DNA from: Zygnema cylindricum
Lineage: Eukaryota; Streptophyta; Zygnematophyceae; Zygnematales; Zygnemataceae
Assembly (NCBI GenBank): GCA_037447655.1
Contig: JBBHKE010003115.1
Coordinates: forward strand, 248,001 to 312,000
Direction of reading: 5' to 3'
DNA: 64,000 nucleotides
Numbering within the stretch: position 1 is the stretch's first letter; each line of letters starts with the position of its first letter. The notes beneath the pieces are model-generated. The model was not told where the DNA came from. It made no database searches and worked only from the letters and a program-made list of their open reading frames with translations. Position numbers and translations under genes: made by a program. Of the stretch, positions 60 through 58,143 are shown piece by piece.

Positions 60-205
60 AGGTCGGCAAGCGTTGTTATTGTTTCGTAGAATCTATTTTT
101 TGGCATGTCCCAATCTTGGTAAAATTGAGTCGGTCAGGGCACGAACCTGGGAAGTTTTATTCTGGTTGTCAACGCGCTAACCACTGCGCCACTATCCTGA
201 TAACG
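60..205 (-). mobile_element. tRNA-derived SINE-like segment
   Basis: Read on the minus strand, this segment has a pol III A-box-like motif (TGGCGCAGTGGTTAG, around 178-192) and a B-box-like motif (GGTTCGTGCCC, around 137-148), at tRNA-like spacing. The same layout recurs near 7700-7820 and in 33548-33700. That pattern is typical of a tRNA-related SINE head. No poly-A tail or target duplication was found, so the limits are approximate. Confidence 0.45.
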
Positions 206-744
206 GGTCTTGCGGGTCCATACTGTCATTTTTTTGCGTCATTTCGAGTGTGGGTGGACGTATACTACATCATCATAATTGAACGATAATTTGTGTACAA
301 TTCTAAGATCGCCATTAACCCATTGAACGGGATCAAGGATTTCGATAAAGAAGAAGTCATGAAGGTCTTTCGCTAGGATAGCAAAAGCATAAGATATTAT
401 TGTTCAAGACATTGAAATGTACGTTTGGTGTAGAATACATACAAAACATTGAATCAGGGTACGAAAAGAAGTGGATAAAAAAAAATTGCAACTACGGAAA
501 AATCCTTATAAAAAAAAGAAAAAACATATTTGGGTATCTTATGCTGTTGACAAAACTTTTGTATGTAAGATGCACAATGAAAATTATACAAACAGTTGCA
601 GTTAACAAAACCTTATTTATGGTCACCGTGACGAAAGCATTTGGGAGAAAAATAGCAAGGCACAAGTACTACTTGAAAAAAAAACTTAAAAAAAGGAGAG
701 CAAATTATGACTATCGGAAAGCGGACAAACGAAATTAATGAACT

Positions 745-2774: not shown

Positions 2775-2924
2775 ATGGTTGGTTCAAAGTAAAAGAATCA
2801 AAACTGTCTCCGTCGCTGTACGGCCGCGGGTACAAACAGCTTCCGACTTTCCAACTTTTGGCGACTCTGGTTCACAGAACGCCAACAGCCGGGCAGCGCG
2901 TCGAAATTAGCCGGGTGAAACGGC

Positions 2925-2932
2925 TGACGTCA
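2925..2932. promoter_or_regulatory. TGACGTCA palindrome upstream of G1
   Basis: A perfect TGACGTCA palindrome inside CGGCTGACGTCAGCAACT, about 400 bp upstream of the G1 start codon. It is a classical plant bZIP (TGA/as-1 or C-box type) binding core. It is kept unchanged at 30697, 49312 and 51249 in the promoters of paralogous copies and is mutated to TGACGTTA in decayed copy G3 (17251). Confidence 0.6.
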
Positions 2933-3187
2933 GCAACTATGGAAAGTGACGCCGGCTCTCACATAGAACATGGACAAACTTAACAGAGAAGGTCAGCTTT
3001 CTTGGCAGCATCTCCGCAACTTGTGCATCCTCGAGCTGCAATAGGTTCCAACTGTGACAAGAGTGCCGTACTTGGAAGACATGATAGCAGTACGGAGGTC
3101 CACCGTGCGACAGCAAAATCGGACAACAAAAGCCGTACTCTTCAGGTATGCACCGGCACCGACAAATTACTGTACCTTCCATCCTCC

Positions 3188-3195
3188 CTATATAT
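3188..3195 (+). promoter_or_regulatory. TATA box of G1
   Basis: TATATATT in the context CCCTATATATTCCACTTC, about 150 bp upstream of the G1 ATG. The same block is found before G3 (near 17506), G4 (near 30959), the promoter duplicate (near 49599) and G5 (near 51536). Transcription would be expected to start about 30 bp downstream. Confidence 0.65.
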
Positions 3196-3340
3196 TCCAC
3201 TTCAACCCGCTTTCCACCTCATCTTCTCACTACACACTCCTTGGCACTCTCTCCCCACCCTACCTATTGCCCCACTGCTCCTCGCAAGCAATCCGTATCC
3301 TTCTCATTCTTACCTCTTACCATCCTCCTCCATCACCACA

Positions 3341-11679: not shown

Positions 11680-11689
11680 NNNNNNNNNN
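11680..11689. other. Assembly gap (10 N)
   Basis: Ten undetermined bases just upstream of the surviving G2 exon. The true gap length is unknown and may hide a collapsed repeat. Confidence 0.99.
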
Positions 11690-17159: not shown

Positions 17160-17656
17160 CCTACATTTGAATTATGGTACAAACAGCTTCTTTCTGGTTC
17201 ACAGAACACCAATAGACGGGCAACACGTCGAAATTAGTGAGGCCAACGGCTGACGTTAGCAACTGTGAAATGGGACGCCAATTCCCACATAGAGTGTGTA
17301 CAAACTTAACAGTGAACGTCAGCTTTCTTGGCAGCATCTCGTCGGCTTGTGCATATTCAACACAGTTGCGACAAGAAAGCCATATTGGAAGACATGCAGT
17401 ACAGAAGTCCACCGTCACGAAATAGCAAGCGACAGCAAAATCGGACAACAAAAGCCGTACTCTTCAAATATGCACCGACATCGGCAAATGACCTTCTATG
17501 CTCCCTATATATTCCACTTCAACCCACTTTCCACCTCATCTTCTCACAACACACTACTTACCACTCTCTCCTCACCCTTTCTATTGCCCCTCTGCTCCTC
17601 ACAGCAATCCGTATCTTTCTCATTCTTAACTTTTATCATCTTCCTCCATCAGCACG
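17160..17656 (+). promoter_or_regulatory. Decayed G3 promoter and leader
   Basis: Homologous to 2820-3340: ACAAACAGCTTC, GGTTCACAGAAC, a mutated bZIP core TGACGTTA at 17251, the CAGCTTTCTTGGCAGCATCT block and a kept TATA box (around 17506). The overlapping frames here are by-products of this shared promoter sequence. Confidence 0.55.
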
Positions 17657-30283: not shown

Positions 30284-30696
30284 TACTTCCGGCAACCTAG
30301 GGTTTGTCTTTTATGCCGGCGCTCTGCTTTTGCCACTGACGGTTAGGCCGCGGGAGGCGGAATGCTGAGCGCACACCGTGAAATGTGCGAGCGTGGCAAG
30401 AATATGAGCTGTACGGATCTGATTAACGCAATCTACTGGATTTGTATTTCCAAATAATTCGCTGTCAATAAATACTTAACCGTACAATACTGTACTGTAG
30501 TGGTTTACTGCTCGCTGCTGTGAACATATGTTAGGGTTTAGCCGTACTATTTTGGTGCAAGTAAAAGTGTCAAAACAGTCTTTCTTGTGGTACGGCCGCG
30601 GGTACAAACAGCTTCCGACTTTCAAACTTTTGGCGACTCTGGTTCACAGAACGCCAACAGCCGGGCAGGGCGTCGAAATTAGTCGAGGCAAACGGC

Positions 30697-30704
30697 TGAC
30701 GTCA
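30697..30704. promoter_or_regulatory. TGACGTCA palindrome upstream of G4
   Basis: Same motif and context (CGGCTGACGTCAGCAACT) as upstream of G1, about 400 bp before the G4 ATG. A TATA box (TATATATT, about 30959-30966) follows at the conserved distance, so G4 keeps both promoter landmarks. Confidence 0.6.
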
Positions 30705-31100
30705 GCAACTCTAACAAGTGACGCCGGCTCTCACATAGAACCTGTCCAAACTTAATAGCTGGGGCAGCACCACGGCAACTTGTGCATCTTCGAGCTGCAA
30801 AATGTTGGATCCACGACAAGAGTGCCGTACTGGAAGACATGATAGCAGTACGGAAGACAGCCGTCAATCACGAAATAGCAAGCGACAGCAAAATCGGACA
30901 ACAAAAGCCGTACTCTTCAGGTATGCACCGGCACCGACAAATTACCTTTAATGCTCCCTATATATTCCACTTCAACCCGCGTTTCATCCCATCTTCTCAC
31001 TGCCCACTCCTTGCCATTCTCTTCCCACCCTTCTTCGCTCCTAGCAAGCATCCCATATCCTTCTTATTCTTACCTCTTACCATCCTCCTCCATCACCACA

Positions 31101-34869: not shown

Positions 34870-36010
34870 CCGCTGGGCAATATTTGATGGTCAATATCTG
34901 ATGCGGATGTCGTATACATCTGATGTCCAATGTGTGATTTTACATGTCGGATGTCTGATGCCCAATGTCTGACACTAAATGTCGGATTTCCGATTTTCAT
35001 TCTCTAATATTAAACGTCAGATGTCTGATGCCCAATATCTGAATGTAAAATGTCGGGTATCTGATTTCCAATTTATATTGTTTAATGACAGATGTCTGAT
35101 TTCCAATTTCTGATGTTTTCGGATGTCCGATGTCCAATATCTGAAGTTAACTGCCGGATGTCTGATGTTCAATTTTCAATATTGAACGTCGTACGTCTGT
35201 TGTCCATTGTTTGATGCTAAATGTCAAATGCCCGATGCCCAAAATCTGATGTTAAATGTCGGATGTCTGATGTCCAATGTCTATATCGGCTGTTTGATGT
35301 TCAATATCGGATGCTAAATTTCGGATGTCTGGTGTCCAATCTCTGATGTTTGTCGAATGTATGTTTGTCGAATATCTGATGTCCATTGTTTGTTGTTAAA
35401 TGTCGGATGTCTGATGTCCGACCTCTGATGCGGAGCTGCGTATGTCAGTTGTCCAATGTCTATTTTCAAATGTCGTATGTTGGTATCCATTGTCTGATGC
35501 TATATTTCGGATGCCTGATGTCCGGCCTCTGATATAACATGTCGGATTTCTGAGGTCCACAGTCCAATATCTGATGTTAAAAGTCGGATGTCTTATGTCC
35601 ATTGTGTGATGCAATACGTCGGATGTCTAAAGTCCAATCTCTGATTTTAAATGTCGGATTGCTGATGTCCACTGTCAAATGTCTGATGCTATATGTCGGA
35701 TGTCTGATGTCCAATCTCTGATGCTAAATTCCGTATATTTTATGTCCAAACTCTGAAACTAAATGTTGGCTGTCTGGTGTCCAATTTTTGACATTAAAGT
35801 TCGAATTTCTGATCCTCAATGTTGGATGGCCGAAGTTCGTCACCGGATGTCAGATGTGCAAGTCTGATGTCTATTATTCGATGTTCAATACATGATGTAC
35901 AATGAATGCAATCATTTAATGTCAAATATCAATTGCAACATTCAAATGCCAGATGTGAGATGCTAGATTTTTTCCAATGACCGGCGTCCAATGTTTGATG
36001 ACCAATCTTC
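34870..36010. repeat. Degenerate minisatellite (GATGTCTGATGTCCAATG type)
   Basis: About 1.1 kb of imperfect tandem units around TGTCGGATGTCTGATGTCC and AATGTCTGATGCTAAA, roughly 35 bp per full unit. A second block, 55150-56050, lies at the same place after G5. The repeats give chance His/Ile/Arg-rich frames on the minus strand that are not genes. Confidence 0.9.
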
Positions 36011-36984: not shown

Positions 36985-37547
36985 TGAAAGGATCGAGACT
37001 CAATTGGAATGCACAGAAAATTGACAAATTACACAATGCGGAAGCCAATTTAACTCAATGTCAATTATCAACCAGCTCATACACATTAAATTCTCATGAA
37101 CATAGATAGAGACAGACATATATAATTCAGAAGAAGAAATTCACATTAATTCTACACTAATTTCTTAGTGGTGTCTAATTTCCCTCACTGGCTAGCATTT
37201 TAACTTAGTCGCAGATTACATCTAGAAATCTAATTCTAGAAGCGTCACATGTACTTGGACGCAAAATAGAGTACGACGCAAACTGAAACTACTCGAAACG
37301 AAACATCTAGAAGTACAGTACTTAAAGTATAACTTAACCTACGCGATACTAAACTGCAAGAAGTACTACGCACGAACCGAAAGTACTAGAAGTCCCGTAC
37401 ACAAACGAAATAGACCAAACTGTTCACACTTAATCAATCGAAACTGGAAAGTACTAATGAAACGAAATGCGCGACGTGACGCGCGACAAAACTGACCCAC
37501 ACTAAAAACGAACCACATTGACAAAATCCTACATTGCAATCCTAACA
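36985..37547 (-). repeat. copia-2 3' LTR
   Basis: 563 bp. The next 66 bp (37548-37613) repeat the polypurine tract and the last 40 bp of the LTR end, so two tract-plus-LTR-end junctions stand in tandem. Confidence 0.85.
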
Positions 37548-37649
37548 TTCCCCCTCTCAATGTGAGGATTTAACGAACCAACATTGACAAAATCCCACAT
37601 TGCAATCCTAACATTCCCCCTCTCAATGTGAGGATTTATAATAACTACT

Positions 37650-40600
37650 GAACAAGCTCAAATTAACCCTAATTTAGGTCTCCCTTTAACAAATACATCA
37701 TGCATTGCACCTTTAGTTAACATATTTGCTGCCTCTTCTAAAGTAGGAACAAATATAAATTCTAACTCTTTATCCTTCACCAAATCTCTCACAAAATGTC
37801 AATGAATTCTAATATGTTTTGTCCTTTTATGAAACACCGGATTCTTCACTAAAGCAATACTACTCATATTGTCTGAATAAATCCTCATGCACTTCACAAA
37901 AATTCCTAACTCACTCAACATGTCCTTAATCCAAATTGAAGCCTTCCCCGCATGATAAGCCGCCATGTACTCAGGTTCAGTTGAACTTAAAGCCACCGTA
38001 GGCTGTAATCTGGAGCTCCATGAGATTGCCCCTCCACTCAATACAAAAGCATAACTAGAGGTGGACTTTCCTGTGTTAAAGTCTCCTCCCCATTCAACAT
38101 CGCAATATCCGAAGCAATCCAAATCATCTCCACTTCGATAAACCTGTCCAATGTTCCAGCCAAATACCTGAAAATTCGCTTGACCGATTCCCAAAGTTGC
38201 TCCTTTGGAGCTTGACTGTACCTGCTTACAATTGAAACACCTACAGAAATATCCGGTCTTGTCCCTACTCTCAAATACATTAGGCATCCAATTGCCTCTC
38301 TATAAGGGACATTAACAATTTCCTCATCATCAAATTTGCTAAGCTGTAATTTCGGGTCTAGAGGTGTGCTAAGGGGCTTAGAAACTAACATAGAAAACCG
38401 AGTAAGAACTTCTTTACAATGTTGTTCTTGTCTCAATTTAATACATCCAGATTTACTCCTAATAACTTCAATGCCCAATATATATTTTGCTTCACCTAAA
38501 TCTGTCACTTTAAAATGCTTCTTCAAATAAGACTTTAATTCCTTAATTTTCTCTAAACTATCTGACACCATAATGAAATCATCCACATAGACACTAAAAA
38601 TAATTTGATCCACTCCATTTCCTTTCACATATACACCGGAATCTGAAATTGTTCTTACAAATCCAAAATCAATCAAAACCTTATGTAAGCGTAAATACCA
38701 TGTCCTTGGTGCTTGCTTCAACCCATACAAGGATTTCTTTAGTCTCCACACTAAACCGGGTTTGGATGGTACTCCTTCCGGAATCTTCATATAAACCTCC
38801 TCTTCGAGATCTCCATTGAGGAAGGCGGTCTCCACGTCCATTTGATGGATGTGCTTCTTCCCGGCTGCCGCCAATGCGATGATCATCCTCAAAGAATCAA
38901 ACTTGACCACGGGAGCATAGGTCTCCGTATAATCCACTCCCTCTTTTTGCTGAAATCCCTTACAAACTAATCTTGCTTTATACTTAATCAATTCACCAGA
39001 AGCACCAGTTTTTGTCTTAAATACCCACTTAGAATCTATGGCCTTCTTTCCCTCAGGCAATTCTACTTCCTCAAAAGTCTCATTCTCAACAATAGATTTA
39101 TATTCCTTGTTAAATGCATCTTTCCACTTAGACTCCCAATCACCCGAATTTCTAGCTTCCGTATAAGATTTCGGGTCACCACCTACACTCTCTTGCAGTA
39201 AAAAGGAATTCATTTAACTTAGCCTCGGAAATAAAATTATGAGATTTATCACTAGCTTTCATTTGAAGACTTAATCGCTCAGGTGCCTTTCCCTTATTCT
39301 CTCGATTACTTCTCCTAACAATCACTCCTTCTTCCATTACATTCTATTCACTCTTTTCAAAAATTGATGGCAAGCTCTTTTCACTATTTTGACTTTTCAA
39401 AGATAATTTTGAACTCTACTTATCATCACTCAAATTGGATTCCAAATCAAAATTGTAAGAATTTGAAACTTTACCAAATTTATGTTTTCGTTTTGGAGTC
39501 TCATAATGATCGTCTTCCTCATCCGTCGAATCCGCTACTTCAAACTCCTCCAAACTGTTTTCTTCTTCAAAATCCAAACTTCGCTCCTTGCCGTTCGAAT
39601 ATTCCATGGCCGCCTTTAAATTCTTGTGGAAGTCAACATTCCGTAACTCCACTACGTTTCGCGTCACTGGATTGAAGATTCGGTACTGATTCGAATTCGC
39701 ACTATATCCGACAAAAAATCCACTCCAGCTTCGTGGACTAAACTTGCCGGTCCGTTTGTTTCGGTCAATATATACGGTCGCCCGGCAACCCCAAATTCTT
39801 AAATGTAGTACGGACGGAACCCGTCCACTCCAAAGTTCTAGAGGCGTCTTCTCGCCAGAAATCGAAGTCAATCTTTGATTACAGACATAGTTTGTCGTGA
39901 CTATGGTTTCTCCCCAAAGCTAAGCATTGTGCTTCGTGCTATGAATCATCGCATGCACCATTTCCTGCAACCTCCTGTTTTTTCTTTCGGCCACTCTATT
40001 AGATTCGGGTGAATAAGCGGCGGTAAATTGTTGCTTGGTTCCTCGCTTCTCACAAAACTCCGTAAATGCGATAAATTCTCCACCATTATCCAACCTCACG
40101 GTTTTCAATTTCCAGTCCGTTTCCCTTTCAGCCATCACAACAAACTTCTTAAAATAATCTAAAGCCTCCAACTTCCTTTTGAAAAGGTACACCCAACTCT
40201 TTCAGGAAAAATCATCAACAATCACAAAAATATATCTATTTCCCCCAAGACTCCTCGGCTTAATAGGTCCACATAGATCCACATGAACAAGTTCTAAAGG
40301 TTGACTCGCTCGAAATTGTACATTTTTGACAAGATGAGGTTTCCTCATTTGCTTCCCCTTGCTAAAACCATTACATCCATTCACCTTTTCTCCGGTCGCC
40401 AATTCCAAACCTCTCACCGAAGAATTCTTAATCATCCTTTTAATGTTTTCCTCCGAAGTGTGGCATTACCGATGATGCCAAAGGCTAAGGTCGCCTTTCT
40501 CCATCTCCACAGAAAGCATACAAGGTTCCTCTTTAACTGCTCGTTTCCAAATTAACTTACTAACCAAATTATCCGACACAAATCCTTCCCCAATTTGATT

Positions 40601-42452
40601 TCCTTCCTTACTTTTAATCATGATTCTAAAATCCTCCAAAGAAATAACTCTACCTCCGACCTTTTGAATTTGAGGAACACTAACCAAATTCACCACTCCA
40701 TTGGGAATAAACAAAGCATCATTCAACTTAGCTTTATGCACTCTAACATTTCCAAATTTATCTCTCACCGGTAAATCAATTCGGACTGTTCTAACCGTGT
40801 CCACCGGAATCACATGTCCACTCGCAACCGTGACATTATTTAGAACCGTAAGCTTCCTTGTATCCAAAAAATAGACTTAAATCTGTACACACATGATGAG
40901 TTGCGCCGGTATCAATAATCCAATCTTTTACACAATGATTACTACAAGCCGAATTCAAAATTGCTTCGGTTTTCTCGTCCAATAAAATAGTTAAATTGTA
41001 ATATCGCTCCTCAATATCTTTTTCAAATTCCGTATAGTTTCCTTGATAACCGGATCCTCTTAATTGGCCACGACCGCGTCCGCGTCCTCGGCCACGTCCT
41101 CGTCTATTTCTTCGATCGTCATAAAAGGAAGAATTTTTCCCTTCTCGTTGGAAACAATGAGAGCTCACATGTCCCCACTTGTGGCAAATATTGCATCTCT
41201 TCTCCTTATCCGGGCACTCGGCGGCAAAATGCCCAATTTTATGACATTTGAAACAAGTCTCGTTAGTGGTGTTAGATTTATCAAATTGACTTCTACTAAA
41301 TCCAACATTTTGACTTCTTCCTCTACCTTTTCCTCTAAAATTTCCTCTAATACCCCCTCTTCCTCGGTACAAATTTAGATCTGGGGAATCCAAAGTATTT
41401 ACATTATGGATTCCACTACTTTCAAAACCTCTACCTACACTCTCTCTAGACTTCTCAATGGACTTCAAATAATTCACCGCATATTCAAGTGTAGCCTTCT
41501 TTTTAGATTGAATTATTTCACTAGACGTAGAATATCTTTCAGGTAATCCCTCTAAGAACACTTGTAACTTTTCATTTTCGGGTACAATTTTACCAAGACT
41601 ACTCAATTGGTCCAACAAAATATAAAATCTTTTGACTCCATCATCTATTGACTCATTATGCTTAAACTTAAACTTAATGAAATCCTTGAACACATAATTT
41701 GCCTTATCTTTGACTCCTTTCTCCAAATGATTTTCTAACGCTTGCCAACATTTATATGCGGTATCATGAATAAGAAAATAATAATGGACCGATCCGGTAC
41801 AACTTTGAATCAACCCATTCATGGCCACCATATCTTTCAATCTCCACAAATTTTGCGCCTTGGGATCTTTTGGCATTTTCTCCTTGCCGTTGACGATCTT
41901 CTATAACTTCTTCAAGATGAGACTCGCTCTCATGTTCTTCTTCCAAATAGCGTAGTTCGATCTATCAAAGATAACCGGTTTGCCTCCCATTCGAAAATCT
42001 TGTTCTCCTTCCAACTCACTATCAAAATCAAAATCAAAATCAAAATCCTCTTCTATCTTTTTCTTTTTCTTTTTCTTACATTTTTCATCATCATCCGAAT
42101 TATCTGAGCTGCTACTAGAACTAGAGCTAGAGCTACCCTCGAATTCCTCTTTCACCGAAACATTTTCATTTTTCACCTTTTTATCCTTTTCTTTCATAAA
42201 TTTCTCCCACTCCTTATAAGTGTCTCTATCTAACCAAATGTTATAACTTTCCTTCTCTTTATGTTGATCCAATCCAAAGGGTTTAGCTGGCAATGACTCC
42301 TGGGACTTTGGCGCAATTCCTTCACCAAAACTGAATTCTAGTTCGCTCAGAACCCGAAGAGATGGCTCGGGTGTTGGCGGAGTTCCCGAGGTCCCCATAG
42401 GCATCCTCCGTCCGGATGGAGAGGGTGCGTTCTTCTTTTTCTTCCCTCCCAT
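37650..42452 (-). pseudogene. copia-2 gag-pol polyprotein, disrupted
   Basis: Gag starts at 42452 (MGGKKKKNAPSPSGRR), with a Ser run, Asp/Phe repeats and a Lys run, then two zinc knuckles (CFKCHKIGHFAAEC, CNICHKWGHVSSHC) followed by an Arg/Gly-rich tail. Protease has DTGATHHVC (near 40900). Integrase has LVHVDLCGP, VRLDNGGEF and NRVAERKNR (40440-39920). Reverse transcriptase 39213-38038 has ARLVCKGFQQKEGVDY, TAFLNGDLEEEVYM and YVDDFIMV. RNase H ends KTKHIRIH then TGA. In-frame stops occur at 41901, in LWHHR*CHTS, after VDDFS, and after KHNA. Frameshifts occur near 40866, between 39416 and 39213, and in RNase H. Motifs are otherwise intact, so the loss of function is fairly recent. Confidence 0.9.
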
Positions 42453-42485
42453 ACCTAACTCACTAGATCCTCAATGTGGAGCTAA

Positions 42486-42500
42486 CCCGCTCCGATACCA
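42486..42500 (-). other. copia-2 primer-binding site
   Basis: In element sense TGGTATCGGAGCGGG, two bases after the 5' LTR end. It resembles the usual plant initiator-Met primer site TGGTATCAGAGC with one change in the first 12 bases. Confidence 0.85.
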
Positions 42501-42502
42501 AT

Positions 42503-43131
42503 TGAAAGGATAGGGACTCAATTGGAATGCACAGAAAAATGACAAATTACACAATGCGGAAGCGAATTTAACTCAATGTCAATTATCAACCAGCTCATAC
42601 ACATTAAATTCTCATGAACATAGATAGAGACATATATAATTCAGAAGAGGAAATTCACATTAATTCTCACACATTAATTCTACAATAATTTCTTAGTGGT
42701 GTCTAATTCCCTGACTGGCTTGCAGTTTAACTTAGTCGCACATTGGCTTGCAGTTTAACTTAGTCGCACATTGGCTTGCAGTTTAACTTAGTCGCAGATT
42801 ACATCTAGAAATCTAATTCTAGAAGGGGCACATGTACTTGGACGCAAAATAGAGTACAACGCAAACTAGAACTACTCGAAACGAAACGTCTAGAAGTACA
42901 ATACTAAAAGTACAACTTAACCTACGCGATACAAAACTGCTACAAGTACTACGCACGAACCGAAAGTACTAGAAGTTCCGTACACAAACGAAATTTACTA
43001 AATTGTTCACACTTAATCAATCGAAACTGGAAAGTACTAATGAAACGAAATGCGCGACGTGATGCGCGATAAAGCTGACCCACACTAAAAACAAACCAAC
43101 ATTGACAAAATCCCACATTGCAATCCTAACA
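42503..43131 (-). repeat. copia-2 5' LTR with a 28-bp triplication
   Basis: 629 bp. It is longer than its partner mainly because a 28-bp unit (GGCTTGCAGTTTAACTTAGT plus CGCACATT) is present three times at about 42717-42800 and once in the 3' LTR. Confidence 0.85.
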
Positions 43132-46121
43132 TACGACACAAGTGACTCGTGCGAATTTGTGTGAAATAAGGGCATTTTACTTAAATGACATATGATAGCA
43201 TAATGTTGCTCGAGTGACGATTTGTGAAAGCGGATGAGATGGTCCATTCATGCAGTCGGTACACTTCTTATCTGCTAGTTTATATTCTTGTTTTATTTAG
43301 TGTAGATCACGCAAGATATTGATGCATATTTGCATGATAATTTGGAAAATTTGTGAAAATGATTTGTGATAGCCAAACATTTTTCCAGTCGAATTTTTCG
43401 AGAGCTACTCTAAGTTTGACAAATGAGGTGATTCTTGTTATGTGTTCGGACATTTATGACTGTTTGGTCAATGTTTTGTTTTATTGAGTGTATTAATAAT
43501 TCAGTTACTTTGGAGCAGGTTTGTTACGTATATTAATTATTTTTGCAAATACATGGTGATTTCTTTTGAAATCAAAGGTACGCAAGGGACTAATAACAAT
43601 TTGCATTGGTTGTTTGGAGGAAGGTAGTTTAGCCATAGTCAATAAATAACCATTATTTGGCATTATGCATGTTGTCTTTAGAAGCTTATCCACAATAGAA
43701 TAACGAAATTGCCTCTAAAATATTCCATTCCTAAACTAATTCTGGCGTACAAATGGATTGGTCTTTACATCGATGTTTGGCTTGTGAAATTTCCAACATC
43801 GCACACGTCGCATACAACTAGAGGATTTGTAACAGTTTCATCTCTTTCACCTGTTGCAAATATGATGTATGGTTTTTCGACCTTGGCGACTTCGACAATA
43901 AGGCCTTATTAGGATTTTATTTTAGTTAGGCAGATACTCTTGTTAAAATGGAACGATATGGGGGAAAGATACATGTCATCAAATGGTAGTCTAATTTGTC
44001 ACCCAATGCTCTCCTTGTTTCCACTATACAATTTGCAATAAGTAAGGCCTCAACTATATTTACAGCTTTCGAAAATATATTGACCACAATATTCTCCAAG
44101 GTCCATGGGAAAGAATAAGTGGTTTGGATTCGTAAAACCAATCAATGAAATCATACCAAAACTAGGTCAAATACAATCTTGACACGTATGATTCGGAAAA
44201 ATGGGCGATCATTGAAGATATGGATCTTGCAATATAATCTCTCACGTAGGGGTGGGAAAAGTCAATTTCACTTTGGTTTTGGTGACTATTCAAATGAAGA
44301 GTAAGCAAAGGTCGATCCTATGATATCACTAGAAGGCAAAGGTGACGAAGATGTGTTTATGCTCATTGTCATTCTTGTGGTTTTCACGATGATCTTTGAC
44401 AATTGGATTGTCAACAGATTTCCTCCATCTTGAGGCGGATGTAGAGATCTCAGCATCCTCTTTTTGTCATGTCATGATCCCACTGTTTAATTCGTACTTC
44501 AACGACTCCTTGAGGATTTCGTTCCATCTCTAAGTGGTTAATTCCTTATGATCGAGCCAACACAATCCATCCTTGTACTTTTCTAGACACGGAAACAATC
44601 ACAAGGTGATCTTGATGCCATGGGGAGGTTGAACGAAACCTCGTTGGCTTCAAAAAGCCTATTTGAATAACATGATGCGTCGGACTCCATGGATATTCCA
44701 TGTTAGCATAGCCTTTTAACGAGGATTTTGATTTTGCATTCACCTCAAACAATTTTTGTGTAGACTTGAGTGCCTCCCATATCTCCCATTTTCATTTTAG
44801 GCTTGTCATGTTTTTTGGTTGATTGTTGATGAGTCCTCAAAATAGTGTATATTTGGCTTTCACTTTTCGAAAGTTCCTCTCACGTATCAAATTTTATATG
44901 TTTTTTTGCTTTACCTTCTCAAAGGACGGATCACACACTTAGATTAAGATTCCTTAGAAATTGGCCTCATCTCGGGCCACTTTAGCTCTACAATGTTGTA
45001 ATTGGTAGTTCGCTCATCCGATTTTGTCAAGGCAACCTATAGGCCCGTAACTTGAAAATCGGAATTGACAATTGCAAACCAACGGACAACGACCTTAGTA
45101 ACTACACATGATGTAAGCTGAACCAACCGACACAAAATATTTGCGGTAACGCATCACAAAGGGGTAACATATCCCTAAATGGGTAAATTATTATCATAAA
45201 TCCATATGAAAACTAGTAAACAATTGATATCATCTTGCGTAGTCAATGTATAGCCAAGGGGTAACTCGACAATGTTGTTGTGAGTGCCAAAGAGCTTACA
45301 ATAGATGGACAAAAGTTCCAACTCCAAAACAACCCTATTAAAAAATGAATTTCTCGTATACTTTGAAAAACTCTAATTGTTACAAAATTGAGCATGGGGA
45401 TTTTGCGTCTCTCACAAATTCTTTTTTCATTTTATTCCTACACTTGGGTTTTATTATCTAGCCACTAACTAGTAACCTGTTGACACTTTTCTTATAATAA
45501 TGTTAATTAGTTCATAATGTGTCGTCGATCCAGCGATTCGCCGTACTTTTTGTGATGTGTCTCCGATAACTTTGGATCACCTTAATGCAATCTCTTGTGA
45601 CATAACAGATGTTGAAATCATTTGTCGATTTTTGTATCAATTCAGGTCTCAGGTCAATTCATATCTTTCCAACAATATATGCGTTAATTTACGATATTGC
45701 TTGTAGTTACACTTTCCATAATTATATCACAAGTTTAAGTCTCCTACAAGCAGTAAACACAAAGGTATTTTGAAACTATTAAAGTGCCCATTACTCCATG
45801 AACATTGGGAAAATTATGCAACAATACTTCGCGGTAGGTCATGTTGACTACATACCTTTCTGAACTCTATGTCACCACACCTACCTTTCATGCATGTATC
45901 GATGCTTCATTAGTATCTTTACAGGTTGAGATGTCAAACTGCAAGGTTTTCCCCAATTTTGTGGGTAAATTTTCAGTTCACTTTGCGTGAAACATCCAAA
46001 GGAAATTATCGCAAGTCGTTCAACTAAACATTTTTTCTCTGTACATTCCGAAAGATGCGATTTGTTCAAAAAACCTCACTCAAAAACGAGCCTCTCTTAA
46101 TCTTATCCCAAGACCAACGAT
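43132..46121. repeat. Tandem-unit module B, copy B4, right part
   Basis: Continues module B after copia-2 (ACGACACAAGTGACTCGTGC, as at 21302) and runs to the start of module A5. The frame at 43709-43912 is the counterpart of the B3 open frame. The remainder has only short chance frames. Confidence 0.75.
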
Positions 46122-48634: not shown

Positions 48635-49155
48635 ACAGCGTGAATCGCTATTAGCGTGTTGGACGCTAATTGAGGTACCCTGCTTTTTTAGGCAAATTCT
48701 CAAATAGAATTAAACATTCTAAATGTTTCTACACGTTATTTGAGGTAGCCCATTAAATAGGATTCATGACTCCAATAAAGTGCCATTATAAATAGTGTGG
48801 TGTACGGTGTGTCAAAGACGTACTTTTTTGTACTTTTTCAAGTAGAAAAGTACAGAAAAGATATTCACGCTGTCCCGTAGTTGCGCTAACATGTAATTGC
48901 GTAAATATTTTCCGGCATTCACGGATGTAAAAAAAACGCGACGGCGTACGATTTGAACAATTTCGTACATGCACATATTGTAGTGTGGAGATATTCTGCA
49001 CCGAAAATTTGTACATAGCAGTTTACAAATTAGAATGTACAAAAAATTAGAATAAAAATTATTTCGAAAAAAAACGACATTTCCAATTAGCGTAAATAAC
49101 GCTAATTGTTTCATTACGCTATCTATTTCATTACGCTAATATCGATTCACGGTGT
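48635..49155. mobile_element. MITE family II, long form
   Basis: Left end ACAGCGTGAATCGCTATTAG, right end CGCTAATATCGATTCACGGTGT. Inner sequence has words TACGCTAAT/ATTAGCGTA in both orientations. Flanked by TA. Non-coding despite short minus-strand frames. Confidence 0.65.
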
Positions 49156-49199
49156 ACTAATTATAGCTATACTATATTTGGTTCAAGTAACAGTCTCCT

Positions 49200-49624
49200 T
49201 CGTGGTACGGCCGCGGGTACAAACAGCTTCCGACTTTCAAACTTTTGGCGACTCTGGTTCACAGAACGCCAACAGCCGGGCAGGGCGTCGAAATTAGTCG
49301 AGGGAAACGGCTGACGTCAGCAACTATGGAAAGTGACGCCGGCTCTCACATAGAACATGAACAAGCTTAGCAGTGAACGTCAGCTTTCTTGGCAGCATCT
49401 CCGCAACTTGTTCATCTTCAAGCTGCCTAGGTCTCAACTGCGACAAGAATATGGCACCGGTAAAATACGATAGCAGTACGGAATTCCGCCTCAGCCAAAC
49501 CGTCAGTCACGAAATAGCAAGCGGCGGCGAAATCGGACAACGAAAGCAGTACTCTCCACGTATGCACCGGCACCGACAAAGTACCTTCCTATCCTCCCTA
49601 TATATTCCACTTCAACCCGCTTAT
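49200..49624 (+). promoter_or_regulatory. Duplicate Root cap-type promoter without a gene
   Basis: Almost identical to 51137-51561 upstream of G5, with the bZIP palindrome TGACGTCA (49312-49319) and TATA box (49599-49606). It leads into a solo TRIM LTR and then unrelated DNA, so it has no coding exon. The frame at 49373-49630 is a by-product of this sequence. Confidence 0.7.
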
Positions 49625-49870
49625 TGTTAGAAATCGGCGATATTCAACTTATCGCAAGGGCGCCAAAGTGTTAACTTTGGAAAATGGCCAAGCCGGGGAT
49701 CGAACCCGGGACCTGTGCAAACCGTACACTAGCTCTACAAACTGAGCTACCCGGCCGATGTGTACGCAAGCGCCTAATACCGAATTTATACGGCTATGAG
49801 TGGCGCCCTGGCGAACCACCTTACAGCGCGATACACACGTGTGGAGTCCAAAGTGGACAGTTCTCCAACA
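49625..49870 (-). mobile_element. Solo LTR of the tRNA-containing TRIM
   Basis: 246 bp, same length and nearly the same sequence as the TRIM LTRs at 51562 and 51869. In element sense it starts TGTTGGAGAAC and ends TTTCTAACA. The bases before it are CTTAT, as at the full element, but those after it are CTAAA, so the target duplication does not match and the right flank has changed. Confidence 0.85.
49685..49756 (-). tRNA. tRNA-like gene inside the solo LTR
   Basis: 72 nt on the minus strand. Acceptor stem GGCCGGG with CTTGGCC (two G-U pairs), D arm GCTC/GAGC, T arm CCGGG-TTCGATC-CCCGG. Pol III A box TAGCTCAGTTTG and B box GGTTCGATCC are intact, and TTTT follows closely. The anticodon loop reads ACGGTTT with C instead of U at position 33, and its stem has one mismatch, so it is probably a tRNA-derived, not a decoding, gene. 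Confidence 0.55.
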
Positions 49871-50876
49871 CTAAAATAGATAAAATATTGGCTTGTTAAA
49901 CCTGTGAGAGATAATGTTAGTTTTAAAAAAAAAAAAAAAAAAAATAAACAATATAACAAATAAAATAAATTAATTAACACAAGTAAATTTATAAACAAAT
50001 AATAAACAAAAAAAAGTATTTTTGGCTTGGTAAAACTGTGAGTAGTGAAGTTAATTAAAAATAAATAAGTAAACAAATATACAAATAAACAAACAAACAA
50101 AAAACAAAGAAAACTGTTTCAAAATTGACAACTTTTTTTTCTATTGATTATGTTTTCAAATTAATCTTTTCTGTTTTCTCCGTCCCTCCCGCCCTCCCTC
50201 TCTCTCTCTCTTTCTGTTTAACTTTAATAGGTTTCCGGTTTCTTTGTTTCAAAAGTAAGTAATTAATTTTGATTTATTTTTTTCGGAGTTTTCAGTGACC
50301 TCAGCAGCAATTTTTTTGAGGGGGAGCTTCCGACAAATCTCACTTCCAAGCTTGTCCTTTTGTGAGAAACCCACTCTTAAACCCTTAAAATACCTAGAAA
50401 ACGACAAAAAACCTCTAACCAACTAGTAAAACTTCTAGATAAAATTCTTAAAAAACACTTCAAAACCCTAAAGCACATTAGAAAACACTTAGAAACCTTG
50501 AAAGATAGTGGAAAAACCTTAACGAAACCCAAAAATAACTCGGAAAATGGTTTTTCACTCGAGATTACTAAGAAAGCTCAACATCCATTTTGTTTTATTT
50601 ACCAAAAGGTGAAAGTTAAATCAACTAATTAACATGAAGCCAGTTATTATTTTGTTCAAGTTATATATATATATAGTAAGTTTATTTTTTTTTTCCTGCA
50701 GAAATCTCTCAAATAACAGTTTATCGGGTTCCTTGAAACCGATAATTGGACAGAGCGAAAATATAGAATTTTTGTGAGTATTTTTTTTCTTTAATAATAC
50801 GTTTTTAATTTCTTTATTGTTCTTTATTATTACTTTTTGTTGCTGTCTTTTGTTGTTGTTTTATTTTGTTTTTACG
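49871..50876 (+). other. Foreign segment with a LRR gene fragment
   Basis: About 1 kb between the solo LTR and a MITE I remnant. It begins with a poly-A run (around 49926-49945), has a CT microsatellite (near 50195), and holds the two exon-like pieces listed next. It has no counterpart beside the other gene copies. Confidence 0.6.
50296..50773 (+). pseudogene. Leucine-rich-repeat receptor-type gene fragment, two exons
   Basis: Two exon-like pieces with proper splice borders: 50296-50361 (66 nt, TTTTCAG| ... |GTGAGA), reading DLSSNFFEGELPTNLTSKLV, and 50702-50773 (72 nt, CCTGCAG| ... |GTGAGT), reading NLSNNSLSGSLKPIIGQSEN. Both match the plant extracellular LRR pattern LxLSxNxLxGxLP and share the same phase. 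The 66- to 72-nt LRR exons are typical of LRR receptor kinases in land plants. No kinase domain, start or other exons are seen, so this is a fragment. Confidence 0.75.
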
Positions 50877-51110
50877 GACGTCATCCGTACTCCACACTAT
50901 TTAAAACGAACATATATATAAATTAAAAACGCTAATTAAACCTTACCTTAAATAGTATAATTAAAAATTTAGAATCATTTACTCTATTTGATGTGATAGA
51001 GTCGAAATTTCGAGCGACCGAATTAGAGTAATCTACTCTAATTACGATTCGCGGTGTATCTATTTCATTTCGCTAATAGCGATTCACGGTGTACTAATTA
51101 TAGCAGTACT
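50877..51110. mobile_element. MITE I and MITE II right-end fragments
   Basis: 50877-51055 matches the right third of the family I MITE at 48239-48405 and ends TTACGATTCGCGGTGTA. It is followed at once by a family II right end (GCTAATAGCGATTCACGGTGTA, ending about 51094), as at 49136-49156. These belong to the duplicated block that also carries the promoter. Confidence 0.6.
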
Positions 51111-51248
51111 ATATTTGGTTCAAGTAACAGTCTCCTTCGTGGTACGGCCGCGGGTACAAACAGCTTCCGACTTTCAAACATTTGGCGACTCTGGTTCACA
51201 GAACGCCAACAGCCGGGCAGGGCGTCGAAATTAGCCGGGTGAAACGGC

Positions 51249-51543
51249 TGACGTCAGCAACTATGGAAAGTGACGTCGGCTCTCACATAGAACATGAACA
51301 AGCTTAGCAGTGAACGTCAGCTTTCTTGGCAGCATCTCCGCAACTTGTTCATCTTCAAGCTGCCTAGGTCTCAACTGCGACAAGAATATGGCACCGGTAA
51401 AATACGATAGCAGTACGGAATTCCGCCTCAGCCAAACCGTCAGTCACGAAATAGCAAGCGGCGGCGAAATCGGACAACGAAAGCCGTACTCTCCACGTAT
51501 GCACCGGCACCGACAAAGTACCTTCCTATCCTCCCTATATATT
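51249..51543 (+). promoter_or_regulatory. G5 promoter: bZIP palindrome and TATA box
   Basis: TGACGTCA at 51249-51256 and TATATATT at about 51536-51543 in the same arrangement as upstream of G1 and G4. The expected transcription start lies close to 51562, exactly where the TRIM is inserted, so promoter and coding exons are now separated by 553 bp of retroelement. Confidence 0.6.
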
Positions 51544-51621
51544 CCACTTCAACCCGCTTATTGTTAGAAATCGGCGATATTCAACTTATCGCAAGGGCGC
51601 CAAAGTGTTAACTTTGGAAAA

Positions 51622-51693
51622 TGGCCAAGCCGGGGATCGAACCCGGGACCTGTGCAAACCGTACACTAGCTCTACAAACTGAGCTACCCGGCC
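51622..51693 (-). tRNA. tRNA-like gene in the TRIM 3' LTR
   Basis: Same 72-nt sequence as 49685-49756: closed acceptor, D and T arms, intact A and B boxes, a TTTT terminator, but an unusual anticodon loop (ACGGTTT, C33) and one mismatch at the top of the anticodon stem. Confidence 0.55.
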
Positions 51694-51928
51694 GATGTGT
51701 ACGCAAGCGCCTAATACCGAATTTATACGGCGATTAGCGGCGCACTGGCGAACCACCTTACAGCGCGATACACACGTGTGGAGTCCAAAGTGGACAGTTC
51801 TCCAACACGCCCCCTCAGGATGTACTCCATCTCGTGTGGCTTGCCATCGCCCCCTGGCTTTGATACCATGTTAGAAATCGGCGATATTCAACTTATCGCA
51901 AGGGAGCCAAAGTGTTAACTTTGGAAAA

Positions 51929-52000
51929 TGGCCAAGCCAAGGATCGAACCCGGGACCTGTGCAAACCGTACACTAGCTCTACCAACTGAGCTACCCGGCC
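51929..52000 (-). tRNA. tRNA-like gene in the TRIM 5' LTR
   Basis: Differs slightly from the other copies: the D loop has the canonical AGTTGGTAG, while the T stem has two G-U pairs (CCGGG with CTTGG). The A box TAGCTCAGTTGG and B box GGTTCGATCC are both intact. A GTATAAAT word lies about 30 bp upstream (around 52028-52035) and TTTT downstream, as in real plant tRNA genes. Confidence 0.55.
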
Positions 52001-52199
52001 AATATGTACGCAAGCGCCTAGTATCGAATTTATACGGCTATGAGTGGCGCACTGGCGAACCAGCTTACTGCGCGATACACACGTGTGGAGTCCAAAGTGG
52101 ACAGTTCTCCAACACTTATCACTCTATCTCCTCGCTACACTCTACTTAGTCCATATCCTTCTCCCTCTCTACCTCTTACCATCTTCCTCCCTCGCCACA

Positions 52200-54365
52200 A
52201 TGAGGCTCTCCCTTGCGACCTTCATAGCCGCCACAGCCATTTTGGTGCTGACATGGCAGCCGGGCGCCTCGGCCCAGGCCGCGATGGCGTGTCCCTCGAT
52301 GCCCTACAGCGCGGGCTACGGCGAGGGCGTGTGCTCGAGCGGCGTGGCGGGGGCGCTGGTGGAGGAAGGCGCGGGATGGGTCGGGATGGTCACATCCCTG
52401 CAAACCGGGGCGGACGTGACACGTCCGGAAAGTTGTTGCCAGGGATGTGCGGCGGAGCCCGGGTGTTCATAGTGGACTTTTGCGCTATTGGACGACCTCA
52501 CACGTGAGAGGATCCCAACTCTTGGGCCGAGGTTTTGGGGAAATTGGGGAGTTTAGATATTTTGGAGCTTGGGAATATTTTGGTTAGGAAAATTGGAAGA
52601 TTGAGAGAAAGGGAATTTGGGGGAAATTGAGAGTTTCGAAAGAGTTGTTGAGGATATTGGGGTTTTTGAATACAAGGAAACTTTGGGGAATTTGAGATTC
52701 TGGGAATCATAGGGAAATTGAAGTTTGTGAAGAAGAGGAAGGTATGGGAATATGGAGGAATATGAGACTTTGAGCAGTTTCGGAGTTCAAGGGAATAGTG
52801 GGATCATCGAAATGATGATGGTCAGGATGTTGACATCTTTTTTGTAGGGAATTCGACTTTATTCTAGCATTAATTTTGTGTGGACCTGCCACAAACAGGG
52901 TCGTATGTTTCCGACCTTATCTTTCATGACATTACGTCCCTATGGTCCCGGTTTTAAGATTTTCTTATTCAAACTTGGGGTTGAACTGTGCACAAGGTGT
53001 GTCTGACACGTGTGAGCGAGATGGCGTTTCCATGTGGCAGCCGCGTGTCATTTTTACCGCTCCGAGGCTTGCGATAGCGGCAGCAATTTCATTCCCGACC
53101 TTACACCGGCCCAGCTGGCATTGGGGCAGAGCTTCACCACTGGTGCTTTGTGCAAATCGGCTCTCTCCGTCGTTGGCGATCCTCACTATACAGGCGCCGA
53201 CAACTCCCACTTTGACTTCACAGGTCAGTTTTTAACCATGTTTTCGGAAAGAAGTGCGGATACTCCCTTAATAACTCAATTTCTGTAAGTGTTATAACCC
53301 TAGTGTTCGAAACATAAACTGAAACTGAACGTGGATCTCCGTTCCACAGGTCTCCCGGGCAAGTCGTACTGTCTCCTGAGTGATGCCCATCTCCACATTA
53401 ACGTTTTCCACGATGGTCGATTCGACCAATGGGGCAAAAACCCCAGCAAGCCGCTGACGTGGATTCGCCAAGTGTCAATCTTCTGGGGCCACCACATTGT
53501 TCAACTGATGGCTCGCACAGGACCCTCCTGGGAGTACGGAACTGGATACATGAAATCCATAATGGTCGACACCTATTCTGTCAGTCTTATGCCCGGAGAC
53601 AAGTTCGGTTTTGCGGACGATCAAATTGAGATTCAATGGGTGGCTGCGCGCCAAAAAAGTGGAGACGATGAGATCGATGTTTACGAGGTCAAAATAAGCA
53701 ACGTTTTGCGAATGATTTTGAGAATTCGACCAGAAATCGTTTTACTTCGAACTCCAGAAGACGGCGTGGTACATTTTGGAATCGAAATTCCCGCGGTTGC
53801 GATTTCCCCCAGAGTCCATGGAGTTTTGGGACAGACTTTCCGCGATGATCACAAAAACCGGCTGTGAGTTTTATTCCCTGTTTCCCTGTTTCACATGATT
53901 GAAATCTTCTTCTGATACGTTTAGAAGCTAAGTACAGATTTTTTTTTTCTGCTTGACGCATATTTGATCATTTTAATGTTCTATAAAATAATCTGTTTTA
54001 CAGAGTTTTCAGCTTCAACATTTTTTTTTTTGTCTCGTTTTTTTTTTTGTTGGTTTTCCCTGAAAATGTCTTGCAGTGCACTCCAAAACCTGGAATACAG
54101 CGAGCTTCTGAAAGTTAAAGTCATTCTCGGAGAAAACGCGGAAGGATTTTTGGACAGAGACGTGGAAAGTTACGAAACGACGTCCGTTTTTACTACCGAT
54201 TGCGCTTATTCCCGATTCGCCCGATCGGAAAATTTAGATACTGAGACTGCCTTAGCCATAGAAATGAGTCGATGGAAGGCAAACGCGGGAGTTTTCCCTT
54301 GTAAAATGGGTCTAAACGAAGTGGAACCTAAAGTAAACAATAGAGGTAACAATGCAAAAATTTGA
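52200..54365 (+). pseudogene. G5: full-length Root cap family secreted protein gene with one premature stop
   Basis: Four exons in consistent phase: 52200-52503, 53041-53223, 53350-53863, 54077-54365, 430 codons with the stop. Signal peptide to about residue 26 (GASAQ), Cys-rich Apple/PAN-like part (ESCCQGCAAEPGCS), exon 2 with PACHFYRSEACDSGSNF, then a Root cap (Pfam PF06830-type) domain: GDPHYTGADNSHFDF at 147-161, GKSYCLLSDAHLHINVF, GVLGQTF near 320-326 and TTDCAYSRFAR near 373-383. These match the plant-specific family of secreted root-cap and LEA-like proteins. The only defect is TAG at codon 91 (52470-52472), which is Tyr in G1 and G4. With the TRIM in its leader the gene is probably silent or makes a 90-residue product, but the otherwise clean frame means loss is recent, or the stop is bypassed or mis-sequenced. 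Confidence 0.8.
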
Positions 54366-55149: not shown

Positions 55150-56050
55150 GTTTAGTTTTTAATGGCGACCGCTGGGCAACATTTGATGGTCAATATCTGA
55201 TGCGGATGTCGTATATGTCTGATGCCCAATGTCTGACACTAATTGTCGGATTTCCGATTTTCAATCTTTAATGCTAAATGTCAGATATCTGATGTCCAAT
55301 GTTTGATGCTAAATGCCAGACGTCAGATGCCCAATGTCTGAATGTAAAATTTCGGGTATCTGATTTCCAATGTACATTGTTAAATGTTAGATATATGATT
55401 TCCAATTTTTGATGTTTTCGGATGGCGGATGTCCAATATCTGAAGTTAACTGCCGGATGTCTGATGTTCAATTTCCGATCTTAAACGTCGTACGTCGGTT
55501 GTCCTCTGTCTGATACTAAACGTCAGATGCCCGATGCTCGAAATCTGATATTAAAAGTCAGATCTCCGATGTCCAATGTCTTTATCGGATGTTTAATGTT
55601 CAATATCGGATGCTAACTTTCGGATGTCTGATCTCCAATGTTTGTTGTTAAATGTTTGATGTCTAATGGGGAGCGGCTTATGTCAGTTGTCCAATGTCTA
55701 TTTTCAAATGCCGAATGTTGGTGTCCACTGTCTGATGCTATATTTTGAATGTCTGATGTCCGATCTCTGATGTTACATGTCGGATTTCTGATGTCAACAG
55801 TCCAATGTCTGATGCTAAATGTCGGATGTCTTATGTCCAATGTGTCATGCAATACGTCAAATGTCTGAAGTTCAATCTCTGATGATAAATGTCAGATTGC
55901 TGATGTCCATTGTCAAATGTCTAATGTCCAATCTCTGATGCTAAATTCCGGATATTTTATGTCCAAACTCTGATGCTAAATTTTGGATATTTTATGCCCA
56001 AACTCTGATGCTAAACTCCGAATATTTTATGTCCAATCTTTGATGCTAGA
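55150..56050. repeat. Degenerate minisatellite, second block
   Basis: Same unit type as 34870-36010 (TGTCGGATGTCTGATGTCC, CAATGTCTGATGCTAAA) with more AT-rich units towards the end (CCGAATATTTTATGTCCAA). It ends at the first intron of G6. Confidence 0.9.
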
Positions 56051-58143
56051 TTCCAAATTGGAAAATTTGGAATTTGGCGAGCTTAGATATTTTGGAACTA
56101 TTTGGAACGTTAGGAAAATCGGAAGATGTGAGAAAGGAAATTTTGGGGATGAGATTCCAAGCTGACGACTGAAGATCTTTGGGAAAATTGAATTTTTTGA
56201 AGAAGTGGGAGGCATGGGAAAATTGAGAATTTAGAAAAGAATTCGAGGAAATTGGGATTTATAGAGGAGAGGGAACTTTGAGGATTTTGAGTCTTTCAAA
56301 ATCAGGTCAGGATGTTGACATCTGTTAGATGTTAGATGTTAGATGATGTTTTGTAGAGAATTCAATTTTGTTTCTAGCATGAATCTTGTGTGGAACTGCC
56401 ACACATAAGGTTGTATGTTGTTGGCCATATCTTTCATGACCACATGCTCTTTTAAGATTTTCTCATTCAAATTTGATTTTTAACTGACCACAGTGTGTGT
56501 CTGACACGTGTGAGAGAGATGGCGTTTCCATGTGGCAGCCGCGTGTCATTTATACCGCTCCGAGGCTTGCAACAGCGGCAACAATTTCATTACAGACCTT
56601 ACACCGGCCATTGCGCGTCCCTAACTGCCACGCTGCTTCGCTGCGCGCCTGTTCTTCAAAGTTGCTTGCGTGTCCTCCCCGTTGCTCTGCACGTCGTCGC
56701 ATGGACAAGCCGCCTTAGCACTTCTCTGCTTTTGCTGCGCCAGTGCAAGTGTGTCTGCTTCGGGCGCCCCACGTAGCATGCACTCGAGGGATACCTCGTC
56801 GCCCCACCAGACAAGCCGCCTTAGCACTTCGCTACTTTGTTTGTCGGAAAAGCAGCTAAAAGAAGAATAAGCGATGTCCGGTTCTTGCACACCTTCTTCG
56901 TGCCCGCTCCGGCCGCTCTCGGCTAAACGCACTTGCCGCTCTCGGTTAAACGCACTTGCTAGGGCAAAGCTTCACCACTAGTGCTTTGTGCACATCGGCT
57001 CCCTCCGTTGTTGGCGATCCCCACTATTCAGGGGCCGACAACTCCCACTTTGACTTCACAGGTCAGTTTTTAACCACATTTTGGAAACTAGTGCGAATAC
57101 TCCCTTGCTAACTCAATTTCTGCAGGGTTTGTAACCCTAGTATTCGGAAAAAAAACTGAAACTGAACATGGCGCCCGTTTCTCTGTTCCACATGTCTTCC
57201 GGGGAACTGAACATGTCTTCCGGGCAACTCGTACTGTCTTCTGAGTGATGCCCATCTCCACGTTAACGTTTTCAACTATGGTCACTTCGACCTATGGGGA
57301 AAAAACCCCAGCAAGTCGTTGACGTGGATTCGCGAGGTGTCAATCTTTTGGGAGCACCACATTGTTCAACTAATTGCTCGCACAGGACCCGCCTGAGAAT
57401 TCGGAACTGGATACATGGAATCCATAATGGTCGACACCTATTCTGTCAGTCTTATGCCTAGAGACAAATTCAATTTTGAGGAAGATTTAATCGAGATTCA
57501 CTGGGTCGCTGCGCGCCAAAAAAGTGGAGACCTGACGATCGATGTTTACAAGGTGAAAGTGAGCGACGTTTTGCGAATGGTTTTGAGAATTCGACCAAAA
57601 ATTGCATTACTTCGAGCTCCGAAAGACGACATGGTACATTTTGGAACCAAGATTCTTGAGGCTTCGGTTTCCCCCCGAGTCCATGGAGTTTTAGGACAGA
57701 TTTTTCACGTTGACCACAAAAACCGGCTGTGCGTTTTATTTTTGTTTCCTGATTTCACATGAATGAAAACTTCCTTTTCATACGTTTAGAAGCTAAATTG
57801 AAAATGTTAATTTAAAATTTTAGTTTATGTTTTAAACATATTTAATCGTTTTGATATTCAATCATATAACTTCACACAAATTTTCAGCTTCAACATTTTT
57901 TTTAGTTCTCGTCTTTTTTTTTTGTTTGTTTTCCCTAAAAAGGTTCAACACTTTTTTTTTGTTTGTTCTCAACTTTATATTATTCGTTTTCGTTGAATAT
58001 GTCTTGGAGTGCACTCCAGAAGTTGGAATACATTGATCTTCTGAAAGTTAAAGTCATTCCCAAAGAAATCGCTAAAGGTTTTTTGGACGGAGATGCGGAA
58101 ATTACGAAACGACTTTCGTTTTGACTTCCGATTGCGCTTATTC
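56051..58143 (+). pseudogene. G6: Root cap-type pseudogene without exon 1
   Basis: Begins inside intron 1; the minisatellite replaces exon 1. Exon 2 (56539-57061) is split by a 350-bp GC-rich insertion but keeps its end GDPHYSGADNSHFDFTG and donor, as in G5. Exon 3 (about 57208-57728) has a duplicated acceptor region and a TGA in place of Trp (PA*EFGTG), then reads well: SIMVDTYSVSLMPRDKF, WVAARQKSGD, GVLGQIF. Exon 4 (from 58010) reads ALQKLEYIDLLKVKV, then a 2-bp deletion, and is cut off at 58143 by a fold-back element. G6 is the closest relative of G5. Confidence 0.85.
56611..56960. other. GC-rich insertion in G6 exon 2
   Basis: About 350 bp, markedly more GC-rich than its surroundings, between ACCGGCCA and AGGGCAAAGC. 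It has internal direct repeats (AGCCGCCTTAGCACTTC twice, CGCTCTCGGTTAAACGCACTTGC-type twice). The minus strand has a 103-codon frame (56621-56932) with LRRLVWWGDEVSLECMLRG, not recognised. No terminal repeats or target duplication identified. Confidence 0.6.

Follow-up and report, generated by a model that had tools for sequence, protein, structure and literature searches.

TRIMs that carry a tRNA-derived sequence in their LTRs have been described from fungi, animals and plants under the name Helenus (Kojima 2024, PMC10886601). The sole plant family treated in that account comes from Selaginella moellendorffii and has LTRs of 120 bp and an internal part of 85 bp. According to the same source, the target-site duplication (TSD) measures 5 bp in the Helenus of fungi and plants, the fungal families are linked to Copia, and most families display the A-box motifs TRGCY and YGG together with the B-box motif GGTTC, with no complementarity of the tRNA-like part to the primer-binding site (PBS). 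Few Helenus families could encode any tRNA, although some from bivalves and fungi could encode tRNA-Thr, and use of pol III by the group is stated to be unproven (PMC10886601). Cassandra (Kalendar 2008, cited in PMC10886601) is, in Kojima's account, the one TRIM lineage for which pol III use has been validated. The paper has since been cited in a 2026 meeting report.

We analysed a 64-kb stretch of DNA from a zygnematophyte alga, hereafter the window. The interval 51562–52114 is very probably a Helenus-type TRIM, that is, a non-coding LTR retrotransposon with tRNA-derived LTR sequence. It lies on the minus strand, just downstream of the TATA box of a Root_cap-like gene, and is the single full copy in the window, which has in addition a solitary LTR. 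The element has no coding capacity, and its PBS and polypurine tract (PPT) lie at the two ends of the internal part (Table 1). We take the PBS to be of the initiator-Met type, pairing with the 3' end of initiator-Met tRNA. An earlier note on this DNA had described a TRIM of 553 bp with 246-bp LTRs, 61 bp between them, a CTTAT duplication, an initiator-Met PBS and a polypurine tract, and the anatomy bears this out in full. The two LTRs are identical at 233 of 246 positions, the 13 differences comprising 7 transitions and 6 transversions (K2P 0.055).

Table 1. Features of the TRIM, its additional LTR copy and the nearby Copia element, in window coordinates
Feature	Position in window	Position in element	Strand	Remarks
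Whole TRIM element	51562..52114		-	553 bp; LTR/TSD anatomy and three paralogous empty sites
5' LTR (element sense)	51869..52114		-	246 bp; TGTTGG...CTAACA
3' LTR (element sense)	51562..51807		-	246 bp; TGTTGG...CTAACA; 13 differences from 5' LTR
Internal part	51808-51868		-	61 bp
Primer-binding site	51853..51868		-	TGGTATCAAAGCCAGG; opens internal part
Polypurine tract	51808..51816		-	GAGGGGGCG; closes internal part, before 3' LTR
TSD, left	51557..51561		.	CTTAT
TSD, right	52115..52119		.	CTTAT
TATA-like box, 5' LTR	52028..52035	80-87	-	GTATAAAT
TATA-like box, 3' LTR	51721..51728	387-394	-	GTATAAAT
tRNA-like sequence, 5' LTR	51929..52000	115-186	-	72 nt; RF00005 36.6 bits; ARAGORN
tRNA-like sequence, 3' LTR	51622..51693	422-493	-	72 nt; RF00005 41.5 bits; ARAGORN
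Candidate pol III terminator, 5' LTR	51925..51928	187 onward	-	TTTT
Candidate pol III terminator, 3' LTR	51618..51621	494 onward	-	TTTT
Third LTR copy, alone	49625..49870		-	tRNA-like part 49685-49756, RF00005 41.5 bits; within 752-bp promoter + LTR duplication
Copia element	about 36985-43132		-	gag, zinc knuckle and RVT_2 matches; two LTRs; initiator-Met-type PBS

The element agrees with Helenus as characterised in PMC10886601 in its length below 1000 bp, the tRNA-like sequence in both LTRs, the PBS, the PPT, the 5-bp TSD, the A-box motif TRGCY, the B-box motif GGTTC and a tRNA-like part that, by eye, is not complementary to the PBS. Compared by layout, it departs from the Selaginella family in its host, a zygnematophyte alga, and in the sizes of its LTRs (246 versus 120 bp) and internal part (61 versus 85 bp). 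Cassandra likewise is a plant TRIM whose LTRs bear a pol III promoter derived from a small RNA, by the account in PMC10886601, although there the source is 5S rRNA and not tRNA; the earlier note had drawn this parallel, as does Kojima 2024 (PMC10886601). An Rfam scan of positions 49500–52300 up to E=1 matched tRNA three times and 5S not at all; its one other match was weak, unrelated and located outside the LTRs. Ajax shares with the present element the TRIM form, an LTR part derived from a small RNA and a 5-bp TSD, but has a partial 5S sequence and is known, in the same account, from two nemertean worms (PMC10886601). Canonical plant TRIMs are similar in size and anatomy, but the main text of the paper treating them mentions neither tRNA nor polymerase III (Gao 2016, PMC4717578).

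The suggestion of the earlier note that no family with this layout had been described therefore does not hold, Helenus having been reported in 2024 from fungi, animals and Selaginella (PMC10886601). What is notable here is the zygnematophyte algal host; among the papers listed by searches of the open-licence PMC literature, none was seen to describe an algal Helenus. The element extends the hosts of tRNA-bearing TRIMs in the plant line from the one spikemoss of PMC10886601 to an alga, and does so with a clean insertion in a gene promoter.

ARAGORN made three calls in the 64-kb window, every one of them a tRNA-Thr (GGT) within a copy of the TRIM LTR; the call in the 5' LTR (51928–52001) is 2 nt longer than the 72-nt part. 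On dinucleotide-preserving shuffles the program made no call in 60 windows and none in 5000 LTRs. All three copies exceeded the gathering score of the Rfam tRNA model (RF00005; 29), while a scan of the whole window with fast filters reported the 5' LTR copy alone. The proposed 72-nt tRNA-like sequence followed by TTTT is confirmed in each LTR. The further claim of an intact A box held for the 5' LTR (TAGCTCAGTTGG, matching the consensus) but not for the 3' LTR, where, as in the third copy, the box reads TAGCTCAGTTTG and has one substitution relative to the consensus. At the level of the Helenus motifs, the 5' LTR carries TAGCT, TGG and the B-box GGTTC; in the 3' LTR and the third copy YGG is missing (TTTG), and the other A-box motif and GGTTC are present.

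In the cloverleaf drawn by ARAGORN the acceptor, D and T arms are fully paired, G-U pairs included. The anticodon stem is topped by an A-A, and the position before the anticodon, a near-invariant U in tRNAs, is a C. Because of these two departures a functional tRNA-Thr is unlikely, and to call the sequence a 'complete' tRNA-like gene, as had been done, was too strong. It might still be supposed that the LTR copies represent an expansion of a tRNA gene useful to the host and supply functional tRNA-Thr, given that ARAGORN assigns all three (3/3) to Thr-GGT with a cloverleaf; in view of the altered anticodon stem and loop, and of the small number of Helenus families that could encode a tRNA (PMC10886601), we consider this extremely improbable.

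Folded freely, the 72-nt part of the 5' LTR had a distorted T arm and a z-score of -1.00, 26 of 200 shuffles doing as well. For the 3' LTR and the third copy the z-score was -2.16 (8/200 shuffles doing as well). Taken alone, these values are weak evidence. In the 5' LTR, downstream of the TTTT, two hairpins are discernible on the minus strand at 51881–51924 (CCAAAGT...ACTTTGG and GCGATA...TATCGC), and the 60 nt at 51869–51928 have a free-fold z-score of -2.69, with 3 of 200 shuffles as good.

The tRNA-like part occupies the same LTR coordinates, 115–186, in 3/3 LTR copies of the window. Both LTRs of a retrotransposon are copied from one template, and since the part lies at the same place in both, it is older than the insertion and did not block copying. 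These observations weigh against the chance capture of a tRNA gene or tRNA-derived SINE in a single source copy, which would then be no family trait, as does an anticodon loop and stem unlike those of a working tRNA. Such a capture would be compatible with the small sample, there being just three LTR copies, all tracing to one insertion and two of them joined by segmental duplication, but we regard it as very unlikely.

Three viral contigs share the initial 25 nt of the tRNA-like sequence, each time within a tRNA-Phe gene; we read this as the D-arm common to tRNAs and as no clue to origin. One LTR-PBS junction pattern, two tRNA-core patterns and one PPT-LTR junction pattern had no exact match in collections of viral and prokaryote contigs.

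As judged from its motifs, the TRIM is somewhat more likely than not to be transcribed by pol III. The internal A and B boxes would drive pol III from a start near position 115 of the 5' LTR, so that the tRNA-like part would serve as a promoter and not as a working tRNA. The polymerase would read through the single weak TTTT of the 5' LTR and terminate at its counterpart in the 3' LTR. The predicted product is, by arithmetic, a 383-nt RNA with a terminal repeat R of 76 nt made up of the tRNA-like part and TTTT. A reverse transcript begun at the PBS would extend through U5 and R and then be transferred to the 3' end on R. The enzymes would presumably come from an autonomous Copia-type element copying the TRIM in trans, with initiator-Met tRNA at the PBS and the purine tract as primers. 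The tRNA-like part was itself considered as the primer and rejected, as by eye the PBS fits initiator-Met tRNA and not the 3' end of the tRNA-like part.

In favour of pol III, the 553 bp contain just two TTTT runs in sense, and each directly abuts a tRNA-like part without a gap. One or two such runs in 553 bp are unsurprising by base composition, on a rough estimate, so that it is their position alone that is suggestive. Several observations point the other way. A pol II TATA box would be just as good a reading of the GTATAAAT that precedes the tRNA-like part; the TTTT of the 5' LTR would end transcription early unless leaky; two of the three LTR copies have a substituted A box; and the free fold of the 5' LTR part, with its distorted T arm, is no better than that of many shuffles.

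In a different account the element is an ordinary pol II TRIM. GTATAAAT would then set a pol II start at about LTR position 111, while the tRNA-like sequence would be a relic, for instance of a SINE that landed in the LTR, with no promoter role, the element still being Helenus by layout. TATAAAT starts 34 nt upstream of the tRNA-like start in both LTRs. TATA-like boxes are, however, also found upstream of plant tRNA genes, so GTATAAAT does not decide between pol II and pol III. The damaged A box in 2/3 copies fits this account, as does Kojima's statement that pol III use by Helenus is unproven (PMC10886601), but the abutting TTTT does not, nor does the outcome of a sense motif search in which neither AATAAA nor ATTAAA was found in the 553-bp TRIM. 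A pol II element is thus an appreciable possibility that falls short of being probable.

Returning to transcription by pol III, the TRIM offers a testable RNA prediction (383 nt, with the tRNA-like part as R) on the use of this polymerase by Helenus. A more far-reaching proposal, that a streptophyte-algal Helenus lineage uses the tRNA-like part as the whole of R, one LTR giving rise to an RNA of tRNA size as well as to the 383-nt template, is tentative and rather doubtful. Were it true, the first strand transfer would be set on a tRNA fold, and tRNA-bearing TRIMs could date in the plant line from before the land plants.

The insertion itself can be followed in the paralogous promoters of the window. 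Five copies of the promoter region align, two with the LTR (49120–49871 and 51057–51808) and three free of the element (2802–3212, 17193–17529 and 30574–30980). When the flanks of the TRIM are joined with a single CTTAT, they align without gaps for about 30 bp on each side of the junction to all 3/3 element-free promoters, with gaps farther out; therefore the TRIM and one CTTAT were added to the promoter. The TRIM is a real insertion with a 5-bp target duplication, which settles in the affirmative whether the CTTAT repeats are of this nature.

The TATATATT box of the gene lies at 51536–51543, the TRIM starts 18 bp downstream of it and the ATG is at 52200. From these distances the element sits at or near the likely transcription start of the gene, in the opposite direction, and separates the core promoter of the Root_cap-like gene from its coding sequence.

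The third LTR copy belongs to a 752-bp duplication (49120–49871 versus 51057–51808) that is 98.1% identical and breaks at the LTR edge. Of its 246 positions, 4 are unlike the 3' LTR and 11 unlike the 5' LTR. Divergence is lower across the duplication than between the paired LTRs of the TRIM, so the promoter and LTR were probably duplicated together after the insertion. The third LTR lies between CTTAT (left) and CTAAA (right), and the sequence past the right flank is unlike the gene side; the break at the LTR edge and these flanks would fit recombination between LTRs at two sites. With the known copies masked, searches of the window for more TRIM copies gave just 17-nt matches at one place with blastn (E 0.35) and none with nhmmer.

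A Copia element with the same kind of PBS as the TRIM (TGGTATCGGAGC) is located some kilobases away (Table 1). Its purine tract, GAGAGGGGGAA, precedes TGTTAGG, and its TSD-like flanks, TCGTA and TCGTC, are alike in 4 of 5 letters. From the shared kind of PBS, the similar purine tract and the TSD-like flanks, a Copia of the type needed for copying in trans is present in the neighbourhood. This particular element was nevertheless rejected as the helper of the TRIM: what the two have in common is the type of PBS and the purine tract, and no LTR or internal similarity was seen by eye or by blastn on the masked window. Relatives of its reverse transcriptase are mixed, e.g. Tanacetum, Aphanomyces and Hibiscus, and give no guidance on the host. 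Near 37507–37638 its purine tract and LTR start occur in tandem copy with a 66-bp step. Open frames resembling, by eye, pieces of a second Copia-type element lie on the plus strand at 24.2–28.1 kb.

The window is rich in copies of the gene with the Root_cap-like exon, at about 3.2, 17.5, 31.0, 52.2 and 56.5 kb. The Root_cap assignment derives solely from the exon at 53304–53864, which matched Pfam PF06830 with 23.1 bits, below the cut-off of 27; two other short pieces of the gene had no Pfam match. With the 187-aa exon as query 13 relatives were retrieved, and a profile search extended these to 173. Among the best 120 of the 173, identity reached 47% to Closterium strains, 56% and 39% to EukProt entries labelled Mesen1, 36% to an entry labelled SM000093 and up to 49% to other EukProt relatives, the highest value overall being 62%. 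We take the labels Mesen1 and SM000093 to denote Mesotaenium and Spirogloea, respectively, and on these relatives the host falls within or close to the Zygnematophyceae. A run of 10 N at 11680–11689 is probably an assembly gap. The gene array also harbours a pair of minisatellites, at 34907–35868 and 55215–56079, which are related to each other, have 35-bp steps and are separated by about 20 kb.
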